Shown here: piece after piece, positions 10,862 to 52,295 of the stretch
Layout: every line of letters begins with the position of its first letter
Position numbering within the stretch: the stretch's first letter is position 1
Origin: a virus
Strand: one strand, 5' to 3'
Length of the DNA stretch: 64,000 nucleotides
Virus record (IMG/VR): IMGVR_UViG_3300001097_000002
Location: 1 to 64,000 of that record
Program-made: the position numbers and the translations under genes
The notes under the pieces: model-generated
What the model was told of the DNA's origin: nothing
Database searches by the model: none
Seen by the model: the letters and a program-made list of their open reading frames with translations, nothing else

Positions 10862-11163
10862 TGTTAAGCACTCCTTAAATATTGTTTGATTATATTAACA
10901 AATGAGCCATCAAGTATTTGATTTTCCCATAATGTTAAAGGCTGTATCCTTATTATATTTGTATTTACTTACTAATTATGATACAAAGTACAGTTGTTAA
11001 GTTTGATATGAAAGCATAACGTTTACTGCCTAGGGTGACAATAATAATGTAATTACTGCTAGTATTAAAGTCGGCGGTTCTAGGTACATATTGTAACCTT
11101 TTGATAATATTTTATTTACTTACAATAAACATTTGAGGTATTAAATTATGATTGGTTGCATAT
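10862..11163. other. Gene-poor stretch
   Basis: About 300 bases with no convincing gene. It contains the first copy of a divergent promoter cassette (11087-11157) flanked by two very short reading frames (19 codons leftward from 11102 and 14 codons rightward from 11148) that look like remnants of duplicated genes. Confidence 0.5.
11087..11157 (+). repeat. Divergent leader cassette, copy 1
   Basis: Matches 11350-11447: the leftward leader CAAAAGGTTACAAT-ATG and rightward leader AACATTTGAGGTATTAAATT-ATG are the same in both. The rightward frame here stops after 14 codons. Confidence 0.8.
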
Positions 11164-11352
11164 TTATATTATGTAAAAATTCACACAGTTAATTACCAGT
11201 GTAAGAATACAAAGTATAATGGATGTCATCAGAACATACTTATATTCATCATTATCTTTTAAACTAGTGTGTTTTACAGTTACTCTTAACCATGTTGTTA
11301 ATAATAGAACTATTAACGTTGGTATTATTGTCATAATTTCAATTATTTGCAT
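11164..11352 (-). CDS. Small membrane protein (62 aa)
   Basis: Two hydrophobic segments (about residues 5-25 and 40-61). ATG at 11352 is preceded by AAAAGG, which is part of the duplicated divergent cassette. Function unknown. Confidence 0.5.
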   Translation of the reverse strand: MQIIEIMTIIPTLIVLLLTTWLRVTVKHTSLKDNDEYKYVLMTSIILCILTLVINCVNFYII

Positions 11353-11447
11353 ATTGTAACCTTTTGATAATATTTTTATTTACTTACTATATATTTTTAT
11401 GCTAGTATTAACTTACAATAAACATTTGAGGTATTAAATTATGATTG
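11350..11447 (+). repeat. Divergent leader cassette, copy 2
   Basis: Second copy of the 11087 cassette with a 27-base insertion carrying a TAGTAT -10-like box. Serves the minus gene at 11164-11352 and the plus gene at 11441. Confidence 0.75.
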
Positions 11448-11593
11448 GTGCAATATTTAAATTCTTTATGAACATGATTATCACGTTTATCGGTATTATA
11501 TTCTTACTGTTTTTCTTTGCGGCAGTATGGGTCGAGGAACAAGAAGCAAAAAAACATACTGATGAAACTAGTGTTATAGTGGATAATGAGTAA
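11441..11593 (+). CDS. Single-pass membrane peptide (50 aa)
   Basis: Begins MIGAIFKFFMNMIITFIGI with one long hydrophobic stretch (residues 3-28), then a charged cytoplasmic-type tail rich in Glu, Lys and Asp. TTGAGG precedes the ATG. The truncated frame at 11148 begins with the same MIG.IF residues, so that copy is probably a decayed duplicate. Confidence 0.6.
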   Translation: MIGAIFKFFMNMIITFIGIIFLLFFFAAVWVEEQEAKKHTDETSVIVDNE

Positions 11594-11616: not shown

Positions 11617-11850
11617 ATAATTCGACGCGAGCGTCTTCATCTTGCTTCGCATATCTAACTGCTGTCATATTAACTAACCAACTAACTAACTAACCAACTA
11701 TTGGCACTTAACATTTGAGAGTGACCATACTTCTATACTATAAAACATTATACTATTTGGTTATGCTAGATACTTATATTATCAAACACACATAACATAT
11801 ATATATCCCGGAGGCATAGGGTATAGAGAATTTCTTAAGCATATTGTATA
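11617..11850 (-). ncRNA. Candidate structured RNA, copy A
   Basis: Transcript predicted leftward from the promoter at 11857-11885. Its sequence matches copy B (51575-51846) in three blocks: the first about 55 nt of the RNA, a 65-nt middle block ending in GTGCCAATA, and a 3' GCGAAGC...GAAGA hairpin. The 3' stem is GACGC/GCGTC here and GATGC/GCATC in copy B, a compensatory pair change. The variable segment is closed by GTTATG/CATAAC. No T-run follows. It overlaps the 3' side of the 11441 gene region in antisense orientation only downstream. Function unknown; a regulatory RNA or an origin-associated transcript are both possible. Confidence 0.5.
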
Positions 11851-11900
11851 AATGATAGAATAACACCCCTGTCAAGCATTGTCAAGTAAAGATTTGTAAT
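11699..11900 (-). repeat. Inverted duplicate, copy A
   Basis: Reverse complement of 51525-51729. The first about 100 bases differ at one position, then about 35 divergent bases, then about 65 identical bases. Confidence 0.9.
11857..11885 (-). promoter_or_regulatory. Early promoter of RNA copy A
   Basis: On the minus strand TTGACA, 17-base spacer, TATTCT; identical to the promoter of copy B. Confidence 0.75.
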
Positions 11901-18177: not shown

Positions 18178-18300
18178 TTGACCTTACCTATGTATGTTGC
18201 TATAATGTTTATGTAGGTTGGGAAAAGAGGTGTTTATTGCCACTCAACAAACAAACAAACAAACAAACAAACAATTAATTATATTATTGGAGTTTATGTT
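18178..18300 (+). promoter_or_regulatory. Early promoter plus repeated leader cassette
   Basis: TTGACC, 17-base spacer, TATAAT, then TTTATGTAGGTTGGGAAAAG..., a run of about seven CAAA units (18247-18273) and AATTATATTATTGGAGTTT before ATG 18301. The same leader occurs on the minus strand at 32168-32250. Confidence 0.75.
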
Positions 18301-18576
18301 ATGAATATGTCAGAAATGAATTCAACACCATTTTTTAACTATGCATTACGTCCGGATATTGAGCCAGAAGCGCTCAGTTCAGACCACGAGAAAGCAGACG
18401 CGCTTAAAAAACTAGTACGTAAGCAAAAATCGGTTTTCTGTTTTGTTGGTGATAGTGAAAAGCTTGTAATAATTGTTGGTTGTAAGAACAGAACTAGTAA
18501 CGATGACATTGACCTTTTTACTAGTAAAGATGACGATGGTTGGACAGTTAATCAACTTCAGCCTATCATTGAGTAA
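18301..18576 (+). CDS. Hypothetical protein (91 aa)
   Basis: Soluble; SVFCFVGDSEKLVIIVGCKN suggests a small alpha/beta fold. First gene behind the 18178 cassette. Unknown. Confidence 0.6.
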   Translation: MNMSEMNSTPFFNYALRPDIEPEALSSDHEKADALKKLVRKQKSVFCFVGDSEKLVIIVGCKNRTSNDDIDLFTSKDDDGWTVNQLQPIIE

Positions 18577-22034: not shown

Positions 22035-22116
22035 TTGACAAGCGTGTCATATATTGTTATAGTTAGTACGCAGGTTAGGAGATAGGCACTTAAATTATAT
22101 TATTGGAGTAATTATT
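22035..22116 (+). promoter_or_regulatory. Early promoter and leader
   Basis: TTGACA, 17-base spacer, TATAGT; then TTAGTACGCAGGTTAGGAGA and AATTATATTATTGGAGTAATTATT. Same cassette family as 18178, 33682 and 51852. Confidence 0.75.
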
Positions 22117-22395
22117 ATGTCAAACATTAAAAAAGTTCACTTCGCAGAATTCGTTTTAAATATTTTAGACGTAGAGTTCAATACAGCTGATATCAACATT
22201 GATAAAGATGGTAGAGTTATTGACATTGATATTAATGATATGAGTATCCTAATGTTGTTCTCAAGTGATATGAAAATCGTTAGACAATTCCACGTTATGC
22301 AAAATGGAGAGACATTTTACAAAAAACGTAATAGTCCAGTTAGTGCATTACTAAAAGACATTGACGAAATTCATTCTGTATTGAATATTGCGTAG
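22117..22395 (+). CDS. Hypothetical protein (92 aa)
   Basis: First gene behind the 22035 cassette. Alternating Asp/Ile stretch (VIDIDINDMSILML), soluble. Unknown. Confidence 0.6.
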   Translation: MSNIKKVHFAEFVLNILDVEFNTADINIDKDGRVIDIDINDMSILMLFSSDMKIVRQFHVMQNGETFYKKRNSPVSALLKDIDEIHSVLNIA

Positions 22396-33585: not shown

Positions 33586-33681
33586 TTACTGTACATGATA
33601 ATCATAAATCCCATTGGATAAAACATTTGACATATAAACAGCAACATTGAACTTCAACTCGCTCATTGTAACGTTAAACAT
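33586..33681 (-). CDS. Very small protein (31 aa)
   Basis: MFNVTMSELKFNVAVYMSN start, preceded by AATTATATTATTGGGGTTTTT, a full copy of the conserved leader. The leader is the main support. Confidence 0.5.
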   Translation of the reverse strand: MFNVTMSELKFNVAVYMSNVLSNGIYDYHVQ

Positions 33682-33734
33682 AAAAACCCCAATAATATAA
33701 TTAGTAAACTACCTATCTCCCAACCTACGTACTA

Positions 33735-33763
33735 ATTATAGCAATATTGGAGCCACCAGTCAA
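33735..33763 (-). promoter_or_regulatory. Early promoter
   Basis: Minus-strand TTGACT, 17-base spacer, TATAAT, followed by TAGTACGTAGGTTGGGAGATAG (cassette family). Drives the 31- and 235-residue genes. Confidence 0.7.
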
Positions 33764-49115: not shown

Positions 49116-49520
49116 CTAAAACAAATCAACTATATTCTCAGAAAGTATTCTTGCGAAATCACCATCTAACGGTTTTGAGTTATACACCATATTGTGCTTG
49201 ATTTCAGCAATTGACAATCCTGACGGTTTAGATAGTTCTACTGCTAATGCGTTAACATTTCGCAGCGCAACATCATTAATTATATTATCCTCGTTTTCTG
49301 CGCAATACTCCCATAATGTCATCAGTAATTCAGTAGTCATCATTTCAGCATATGCTAAGTTTTTAAACTGATAAGACATAACAATTGCTCTGGCGGTTGG
49401 CCTATACATTGTAACCGATACACCACTAAAATTTGATAATTGCATCGCCACTTCTATTTGATATTGTAGGCTAACAATCAAGTCGCCATCATCAAACTTA
49501 ACAATTTCTTTAAATGTCAT
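49116..49520 (-). CDS. Hypothetical protein (134 aa)
   Basis: GGAGGAGAACA before ATG; the start overlaps the end of the polymerase N-piece by 11 bases. Helical. Unknown. Confidence 0.6.
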   Translation of the reverse strand: MTFKEIVKFDDGDLIVSLQYQIEVAMQLSNFSGVSVTMYRPTARAIVMSYQFKNLAYAEMMTTELLMTLWEYCAENEDNIINDVALRNVNALAVELSKPSGLSIAEIKHNMVYNSKPLDGDFARILSENIVDLF

Positions 49521-50709
49521 TGTTCTCCTCCAACATCATATCAAGTCTTGTGGCAACCATAGTTCTAATCCTTGCCCATCGGTCTTTTTCTGGTAGTTCT
49601 TCAATGTTTGTTTCTTCTGGTAGTTCTTCAATGTTTGTTTCTTCTGGTATATCATACACACCACAATACAAGTTCATTAGACTGTCTTTGTATTCGCTAT
49701 AATTTACTTTTTTCTCGCCAAGCTCAACATCAGAAATATGGTCAAGTGTATATCGTTCTTGCTTAGCCTTTGCGTACTGTTTATATAATGCCATATAGTC
49801 TAAATGAGTAAGACCAAAGATATTATATTCTAATGATGGTGCTCGCTTGTTTTCTTTAATAACGTTCTTACCGTATGCACTAAATGGACTTAGTTTATTA
49901 GTAACAGCGTTACCTACAATCTTTCTAGCGCGAGTTACAAGATATGGTATATCAAATAACACACCAAACCAACTAGTGATAAAGTCAAACTGTTCGTCTA
50001 CAAAAACGTTGATAAATGCCGTAATCAGTTCTTTCTCATTTCTACATTGTAGATACTCAATATCCGATTTTCCAGTATACCCTTTTAATCCAAGTCCGCC
50101 TGTTTTAACAATGTTATGTCCAACGATAACTTGATAGGTGATACTAAGAATTTCAGCAATTGCATCCTCGGGTTTCGGAAAGCCGATGTTCTGGTCAGCA
50201 TACGTAGAGTCTTTATACCAAACCATTTTTTTATAGAACGGGTCCATCACTTTAATATCAGCAAGATTATCGAAGTTTTTAATTTGTTTGTAAAATGCTT
50301 CTTTAGTTGGACCCTTACCTTCTTTATATACAACGGTGTCGAAATTCGTATATGTAAAACCATCACCATGATTAACTTCAATATCAAAGGATATCGTTTT
50401 ATACAAAGGTTCGTCCACGCTTACTTCTTCATACTCCTTTGATATAAATTGCTGTATAGGTGAAGTGTTTCCGAATATATTTTCCATTTGGTTGTTGTGT
50501 ACGAAATCATTAAGCTTATATATAGTATCAAATTCGATACGTTTTAACTTGTCACCATACAAACTAATATAGTCTCCACTTATACTTTTTGTGAATAGTT
50601 CATATGGATAGTTTTTTACAATCTCAATATGACGTTCACCATCTTGTATATAACGATGAAACAGCGTGTCGCCCATTGTTCCCACGAACGTATAATACCG
50701 CTTACTCAT
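49510..50709 (-). CDS. 43: DNA polymerase gp43 N-terminal piece (exonuclease part)
   Basis: 399 residues. Exonuclease motif I ISFDIEVNHGDG and motif II region FDFITSWFGVLFDIPYLV are present; the usual Asn of the NxxxFD motif is Phe or shifted. HLDYMALYKQYAKAKQERYT and DVELGEKKVNYSEYKDSL match the stretch just before motif III, which is encoded on the middle piece. The C-terminus ends with two copies of EETNIEELP from a 27-base tandem repeat (about 49590-49650) and a short helix. It cannot have full exonuclease or polymerase activity alone. Confidence 0.88.
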   Translation of the reverse strand: MSKRYYTFVGTMGDTLFHRYIQDGERHIEIVKNYPYELFTKSISGDYISLYGDKLKRIEFDTIYKLNDFVHNNQMENIFGNTSPIQQFISKEYEEVSVDEPLYKTISFDIEVNHGDGFTYTNFDTVVYKEGKGPTKEAFYKQIKNFDNLADIKVMDPFYKKMVWYKDSTYADQNIGFPKPEDAIAEILSITYQVIVGHNIVKTGGLGLKGYTGKSDIEYLQCRNEKELITAFINVFVDEQFDFITSWFGVLFDIPYLVTRARKIVGNAVTNKLSPFSAYGKNVIKENKRAPSLEYNIFGLTHLDYMALYKQYAKAKQERYTLDHISDVELGEKKVNYSEYKDSLMNLYCGVYDIPEETNIEELPEETNIEELPEKDRWARIRTMVATRLDMMLEENNDI

Positions 50710-50747: not shown

Positions 50748-51248
50748 TTAGTCGAACAGATTCTCATTCCATTCACGATGCCCTTCCCTAAATGCCATAT
50801 TCGATTGTGTTTCTCGAACAGAAACTCTATAGCACCACACATTTTTAGCAACTTCTTTACCAAACGCTTCTTCGATAAAAATACCGTTAATGTACTTGTA
50901 CACGAAGTCAGCGATTGATTCACAACCAGTATGCTCAACTTCAGTAATTTTAGCAATACCTAGTTCACCTAATGCTTTAATTTGGTTGTACATTGGGTCA
51001 TCACTACTTAGCAATAAAGTATGGTCAAACCATTCCTCCAACTTTTCTTTAAGTGGTTTCAAACCACCGTATTCTACTTGTCCCCAATTACGTGTATCTA
51101 ATTCATTTGAACCAAAATATAATTTAAAACTAAAACTATATCCATGTATTTTATTACAGTGTGAATCGGCCCTCCATTGTCTGTATGCACACGGAAAAGC
51201 ATCGACATATTCTTTCGTGACTGTGTATTTGTAATTTATGTTATTCAC
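50748..51248 (-). CDS. QueD/6-pyruvoyl-tetrahydropterin synthase-like protein, GTG start
   Basis: 166 residues. SHCNKIHGYSFSFKLYFG holds the zinc His pair of the PTPS/QueD family; FDHTLLL and VEHTGCESIADFVYKYI fit the rest, and VSVRET ends the fold. QueD makes carboxy-tetrahydropterin for 7-deazaguanines, used by some phages to modify DNA. GGGAG precedes the GTG at 51248. No other pathway gene is in the window. Confidence 0.82.
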   Translation of the reverse strand: MNNINYKYTVTKEYVDAFPCAYRQWRADSHCNKIHGYSFSFKLYFGSNELDTRNWGQVEYGGLKPLKEKLEEWFDHTLLLSSDDPMYNQIKALGELGIAKITEVEHTGCESIADFVYKYINGIFIEEAFGKEVAKNVWCYRVSVRETQSNMAFREGHREWNENLFD

Positions 51249-51524: not shown

Positions 51525-51729
51525 ATTACAAATCTTTACTTGACAATGCTTGACAGGGGTGTTATTCTATCATTTATACAATATGCTTAAGAAATTCTCT
51601 ATACCCTATGCCTCTGGGATATATATATGTTTTATATGCATTCGATAATAATAGTAATGATGCATAACCAAATAGTATAATGTTTTATAGTATAGAAGTA
51701 TGGTCACTCTCAAATGTTAAGTGCCAATA
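51525..51729 (+). repeat. Inverted duplicate, copy B
   Basis: Reverse complement of 11699-11900; see that entry. The copies flank about 39.6 kb. Confidence 0.9.
51540..51568 (+). promoter_or_regulatory. Early promoter of RNA copy B
   Basis: TTGACA, 17-base spacer, TATTCT; start site predicted near 51575. Confidence 0.75.
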
Positions 51730-51846
51730 ATTGATAATACGCTTTATTTGAGTGATTAGCTACAAAAACAAGCTATAATAAGCTATATTTGAGTGATTAG
51801 CTATATAGTATAACGCGAAGCTAATGAAGATGCGAAAGCATCGAAT
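51575..51846 (+). ncRNA. Candidate structured RNA, copy B
   Basis: Predicted elements: hairpin around CCC-TATGCCTCT-GGG (51604-51618, loop differs by one base in copy A), stem TATGCAT/ATGCATA (51634-51666) where copy A has an unrelated stem, identical block 51662-51729, then two TATTTGAGTGATTAGCTA repeats (51745-51762, 51785-51802; not in copy A), and a 3' hairpin GATGC-GAAA-GCATC (51829-51842) that covaries with copy A. A 21-codon frame starts at 51583. It leads into another promoter at 51852, so it could also be a long leader. Confidence 0.5.
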
Positions 51847-51851
51847 ATAAG

Positions 51852-51934
51852 TTGACAACACATAATATTATTGTTATAGTTATTGAGTAGTTCGGAAAGG
51901 CAGTTTAAACAAATTTATATTATTGGAGTCTAAA
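51852..51934 (+). promoter_or_regulatory. Early promoter and leader, direct repeat copy 1
   Basis: TTGACA, 17-base spacer, TATAGT, then TATTGAGTAGTTCGGAAAGG and TTTATATTATTGGAGT before ATG 51935. About 60 bases are repeated at 52228-52290. Confidence 0.8.
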
Positions 51935-52198
51935 ATGAGTATTATCAAATTGGTTAGTAAATGTCTAAATGAGTATGGTCTACTATTCACATATAAGCAC
52001 ACAGGCTTACATACAATAACAATTAGTGATGGTATAACTTTACGTATCAATAATGATGGGAAATATATTGCATTTTATTACTATGGTTTAAGAGAAGAAC
52101 AAAGAAAAAACGAAACTGGTATTACTAAAGAAGATATACAATTTATACTTGATGATGCAATGCGCGTTAAACGCATTTATGAAGATTTTGTAAGTTAG
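51935..52198 (+). CDS. Hypothetical protein (87 aa)
   Basis: Soluble, alpha/beta; ATG 51935 fixed by the leader. Unknown. Confidence 0.6.
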   Translation: MSIIKLVSKCLNEYGLLFTYKHTGLHTITISDGITLRINNDGKYIAFYYYGLREEQRKNETGITKEDIQFILDDAMRVKRIYEDFVS

Positions 52199-52210
52199 TG
52201 TAATAATCAC

Positions 52211-52295
52211 TTGACCTGTTCGTCATATATTGTTATAGTTATTGAGTAGTTCGGAAAGGCAGTTTAAACAAATTTACATTATTGGAGTAATTATT
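52211..52295 (+). promoter_or_regulatory. Early promoter and leader, direct repeat copy 2
   Basis: TTGACC, 17-base spacer, TATAGT, then the same leader as 51880-51930. Confidence 0.8.

Follow-up and report, generated by a model that had tools for sequence, protein, structure and literature searches.

The T4 stable RNAs C and D are untranslated and come from single genes in the tRNA cluster. The PeSL (promoter early stem-loop) is a unit whose stem-loop acts as a terminator, and it occurs in many copies between small genes, in hyperplastic regions. Outside the coliphages, the origins and noncoding RNAs of T4-like phages have, to our knowledge, been little mapped. Shuffling in T4-like phages has been attributed to PeSLs, in work cited in PMC4503421. 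The T4 origins oriE, oriF and oriG lie near strand switches; oriE depends on an early promoter, and oriF and oriG consist of a promoter and an AT-rich unwinding element. These origins share no sequence motif, and R-loop formation at them requires no specific sequence (PMC3016281).

The element described here lies in a window of 64,000 nucleotides, the first 64 kb of a 96,886-base IMG/VR record (IMGVR_UViG_3300001097_000002), in two copies designated A and B. It resembles a PeSL in being a repeated intergenic unit of a T4-like phage, with a strong sigma70 early promoter, a stem-loop nearby and a likely part as recombination substrate. It differs in that the promoter precedes the stem-loop by about 250 nt, without a terminator, in that no gene is directly served, and in that the copies are few and large. 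With oriE, oriF and oriG it shares a promoter followed by an AT-rich stretch that is predicted to be transcribed and that lies, in two of the three known copies, at a strand-switch region; those origins, however, have no motif in common, whereas here one sequence is repeated. Like the stable RNAs C and D, it is predicted to be an untranslated RNA encoded by a T4-like phage, but it is multi-copy, and similarity to them, as checked via Rfam, gave no match.

The 96.9 kb fragment is from a T4-like myovirus, as assigned from its gene content: a gp23-type major capsid protein, portal, tail sheath and baseplate hub, together with UvsX, an SbcCD-like nuclease, DNA polymerase, ligase and primase. By capsid protein its closest named phages (approximately 50-52% identity) are Xanthomonas phage X1, Acidovorax phage ACP17, Variovorax phage V45v66 and Stenotrophomonas phages; no DNA-level match to named phages was found. 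A second record, IMGVR_UViG_3300023301_000007, is identical wherever compared and contains both copies in the same arrangement, and the orientation of A and B is the same in both assemblies of the phage (n=2). The match of the DNA polymerase frame at 49510-50709 is confined to the first third of its family profile (phrog_262, positions 7-304 of 856), so this gene may be split or interrupted.

The initial annotation of this DNA had described a duplicated, inverted element at two loci, and the alignment agrees with it. The homologous core, comprising the promoter and the 5' part of the predicted transcript, occupies 51525-51733 on the plus strand in copy B and, by repeat search and alignment with copy B, 11695-11900 on the minus strand in copy A. 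The two are inverted relative to each other, 40 kb apart, and their 93% identity over 209 nt (E 3.9e-86) is not a chance likeness. The inverted repeat consists of two blocks, I1 (11787-11900 paired with 51525-51638; 114 nt, 96%) and I2 (11695-11766 paired with 51662-51733; 72 nt, 99%), which are separated by a diverged middle of about 25 nt; the near-identical 5' segment followed by a diverged part had been correctly noticed, and the complementary arms noted there hold. The onset of homology is abrupt and lies about 8 nt before the -35 box; of the 13 aligned columns that precede it, 6 differ. Further downstream, at 51740-51808 in the 3' part of copy B, ATTTGAGTGATTAGCTA is present twice; the equivalent place in copy A (11668-11695) has unrelated TTAGT-type repeats. 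At 11113-11170 and 11406-11463, the start of a small membrane-protein-like gene and its leader are duplicated in tandem; the gene (11441-11593, plus strand; 50 amino acids) closely follows copy A, on the strand opposite to it.

The promoter of copy B is TTGACA-17 nt-TATTCT with an extended TG (51540-51568, plus strand; -35 box at 51540-51545, -10 box at 51563-51568) and has a predicted start near 51575; that of copy A lies at 11857-11885 on the minus strand, with a predicted start near 11850. In both, the shared strong early promoter that had been claimed is a near-consensus extended -10 sigma70 promoter with 10 of 12 matches. The hexamers and the TG are identical in all three copies known (the third is described below), which have TTGACA-17-TGTTATTCT in common, a strong sigma70-like early promoter of the kind that marks a PeSL. 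A middle promoter was also considered. The MotA box lies about 13 nt from the -10 box, whereas the TGCTTGA found here is 8 nt from it and reads TACTTGA in the third copy, and the candidate was rejected. At the other end, the unit closes with a hairpin, GATGC-GAAA-GCATC in copy B (51829-51842, plus strand) and, by comparison with it, GACGC-TC-GCGTC in copy A (11635-11624, minus strand). As had been claimed, the two stems differ, namely by a T-A to C-G exchange, within the common context GAAGA.GC..GC.TCGAAT. The hairpins are not scored as terminators because no T run follows either of them; terminator scoring of the A and B regions found no intrinsic terminator at the hairpins and no terminator-like site elsewhere in them, so that the terminator stem-loop of a PeSL is missing. 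The practical end of the unit in copy B is marked by the next promoter, TTGACA-17-TATAGT (51852-51880, plus strand), which serves the gene at 51935. Mini-hairpins of the d(GCGAAGC) type were dismissed: GCGAAGC is present in A and B, but also in four other places, and is absent from G001.

A third copy, C, 85% identical over 182 nt, lies on IMGVR_UViG_3300001097_000097 (20,566 bases, here L003). This fragment, too, is T4-like, with a gp41-type helicase, a baseplate hub and queC/queE among its genes. At E 1e-4 none of its proteins is matched in the window's genome. The tetranucleotide profiles of the two correlate at 0.77-0.80, where pieces of the window's genome among themselves give 0.74-0.81 and 20 other T4-like contigs of similar GC give 0.32-0.58. 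The two also have other repeated intergenic promoter cassettes in common, at 80-95% identity. From the tetranucleotide signature and the common cassettes, L003 probably comes from the same phage or a sister phage, of which it would be a part that does not overlap the window's fragment, in which case the phage genome would probably have at least three copies. Nothing beyond these three was found in IMG/VR by exact and degenerate patterns, and no copies were found in 84,980 prokaryotic genomes or in named phages. A covariance-model search of phage genomes, which the initial annotation had proposed, showed no wider family: in 22 records, including X1, ACP17, V45v66, Melnitz-3, DLP_6, Moby and C48C1, it returned the training copies only. 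One match in L035 and its relatives (E 0.1-1.1) was rejected as it overlaps coding sequence. A queD-like gene (50748-51248) adjoins copy B and queC/queE-like genes (L003:2793-7342) come after the third copy, which suggests 7-deazaguanine metabolism, perhaps for DNA modification.

These neighbours were the reason for considering a preQ1 riboswitch, since copy B is next to the queD-like gene and the third copy is upstream of queC. However, copy B is wrongly oriented, facing away from queD, no que gene adjoins copy A, and the element matched no Rfam 15 covariance model, even at E 10. Antisense action on a phage ribosome-binding site was likewise discarded. The CCAAUAAU of copy B matches 15 start regions, as do 6.6% of random windows, and it is absent from copies A and C; the phage's start regions are not enriched for pairing with the 5' tail (P 0.29 for the best, 0.48 for the top ten).

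What the transcript could form by itself is a rod-like hairpin, a candidate with borderline support at 51599-51703 (plus strand) in copy B and 11725-11826 (minus strand) in copy A, with an outer helix CUAUAC/GUAUGG and, in the distal arm, wobble and compensatory changes. Such changes had earlier been taken to indicate a structured RNA, and they do exist. Of the 41 pairs in the consensus rod, three are changed on both sides, and 96.7% of cells pair. Two of these three pairs take in the sole substitutions, two in number, that copy C has within the first 55 columns of the RNA; one further two-sided pair is in the 3' hairpin. The covariation is nevertheless much weaker than was claimed, in that only three distinct sequences, two of them close, underlie all of these statistics. 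The covariation score of the rod was reached by 24 of 500 shuffles. When the substitutions of copy C were redrawn or repositioned, P was 0.05-0.09 for alifold energy, 0.29-0.30 for the two-sided count and about 0.05 jointly, and the number of pairs predicted from B or A alone that are kept in C gave P = 0.02-0.28. Folding the copies, also proposed earlier, gave the rod in B and A, but the folds are no more stable than those of shuffled sequences: full-length z-scores are -1.2, +1.0 and +0.3 for the three copies, and the 110-nt stretch alone, which forms the rod in all three, gives -1.3, -0.3 and +0.2. With the 5' tail included, the pair probability of the rod is about 0.9 in B, 0.74 in A and about 0 in the third copy, which prefers another fold, the rod being 3.5 kcal/mol worse there. 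Given shuffle and redraw P values of about 0.02-0.3 and a third copy without the rod, covariation across the copies is suggestive only and is not established.

Conservation is steeply graded along the unit. From -45 to about +73 the three copies are nearly identical, with 6-8% differences against about 48% downstream; between A and C, 7 of 118 columns differ in the first stretch and then 37 of 77 (P 1e-11). The spacer between the -35 and -10 boxes is conserved as strongly as the transcript, a pattern that gene conversion and a DNA-level function would explain equally well. The three copies have neither a ribosome-binding site nor a long ORF in common, and the earlier description of conservation without a long translated frame was thus accurate. 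The homology runs from just upstream of the -35 box to the 3' hairpin, an extent expected of an RNA gene rather than of a bare promoter or a recombination scar. Since it spans promoter to hairpin without a translatable frame, we favour, with the chances for and against about level, the reading that this T4-like myovirus carries an early noncoding transcription unit in several copies. The host's sigma70 RNA polymerase would then initiate at the extended -10 promoter as soon as infection begins. Its product would be an untranslated RNA of roughly 240-280 nt, invariant over about the first 73 nt, folded back on itself in the middle and with a small hairpin in the 3' part. We infer from the DNA sequence that the element is transcribed, where its transcript ends, and that the RNA may be the functional product, acting in trans. 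Homologous recombination in this UvsX phage appears to keep the copies alike, at least over the promoter and 5' part, and would explain the near-identity of A and B; it may also explain the sharp boundary shared with C, so that conservation by itself is no proof of function. Counted for the noncoding unit are the same promoter in three copies, the drop in conservation beyond +73, a 5' frame that lacks a ribosome-binding site, the placement of copy A, which cannot be a leader, and some compensatory changes, including both 5' substitutions of the third copy; counted against it are z-scores of -1.3 to +1.0, a rod that is not dominant in the third copy and the lack of a canonical terminator, as well as the absence of an Rfam match, a wider family and phage target enrichment, and the conserved promoter spacer. 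With two or three copies per genome that are kept alike, the unit is a compact target for work on transcripts or replication.

The conserved 5' part does contain a 21-codon ORF, from 51583, which could encode a nearly leaderless short peptide, MLKKFSIPYA[S/P]GIYIC..., such as a membrane peptide of small size. In all three copies the frame is open for the first 16 codons, where three substitutions occur, two of them synonymous and one Ser to Pro. We think such a peptide very improbable: the frame lacks a ribosome-binding site and is preceded by about 7 nt of leader, although neighbouring early genes of the phage have a TATTGGAGT-type site, its C-terminus is frameshifted between copies, and the promoter spacer is conserved as much as the frame. 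A mobile promoter cassette, repeated through homologous-recombination shuffling in the manner of T4-type PeSLs, with an RNA that has no function beyond the promoter, is also unlikely, but a less strained idea. The genome has other repeated early promoter/leader cassettes, some common to the third-copy fragment at 80-95%, the reported shuffling by PeSLs is a precedent, and a conversion tract could end at the sharp boundary at +73. Unlike those other cassettes, however, the element lacks a ribosome-binding site, and no gene follows it directly. Copy A, moreover, points into a convergent gene (11441-11593, plus strand) and is therefore not a leader, and no terminator was found. Two copies lie in 96.9 kb and a third on a second fragment; other cassette families are more numerous. 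If the element were only a shuffled promoter cassette, PeSL-like recombination would extend to a distant lineage.

The location of the copies raises a different question, namely whether the early promoter makes a primer transcript at strand-switch points, as at a transcribed origin of the T4 oriE type, the element then being a multi-copy DNA or RNA signal for replication start. The window's largest divergent strand switch, between minus-strand genes at 26-51 kb and plus-strand genes that begin at 51.9 kb, falls exactly at copy B, as does the minimum of the cumulative GC skew, and the third copy is at a minus/plus switch adjoining a gp41-like helicase gene; at both of these divergent switches the element has about 28-30% GC. 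Copy A, on the other hand, is away from any major switch. The skew follows gene orientation everywhere, the plus-strand genes at 14-26 kb having the same skew as those after 52 kb, and is thus no separate replication signal. T4 origins, for their part, have no common sequence motif, and R-loops form there without need of a specific sequence (PMC3016281). We therefore regard an origin of this type as doubtful; were it real, the phage would have a shared origin sequence, which T4 lacks. Rather less probable again is a dispersed, repeated RNA-primed origin, in which the same structured primer transcript would be made at several strand-switch points and replication would start from each, unlike in T4.

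The candidate noncoding transcription unit is not the only repeated early element in this genome. A second multi-copy family, found at 18178-18300 (plus strand) and 32271-32160 (minus strand) and at 18400, 19711 and 20480 in G001, consists of an early promoter and a conserved leader, GTAGGTTGGGAAAAGAGGTGTTTA, ahead of a TATTGGAGT ribosome-binding site. It is common to both fragments, at up to 95% identity, and its leader may hold a small GGU...ACC hairpin. The variants GAGTAGTTCGGAAAGGCAGTTTA and GTACGCAGGTTAGGAGATAGGCACTTA of the GTAGGTTGGGAAAAGAGGTGTTTA leader occur upstream of small early genes at 51869-51929, 52228-52288, 22046-22119 and 33666-33747.
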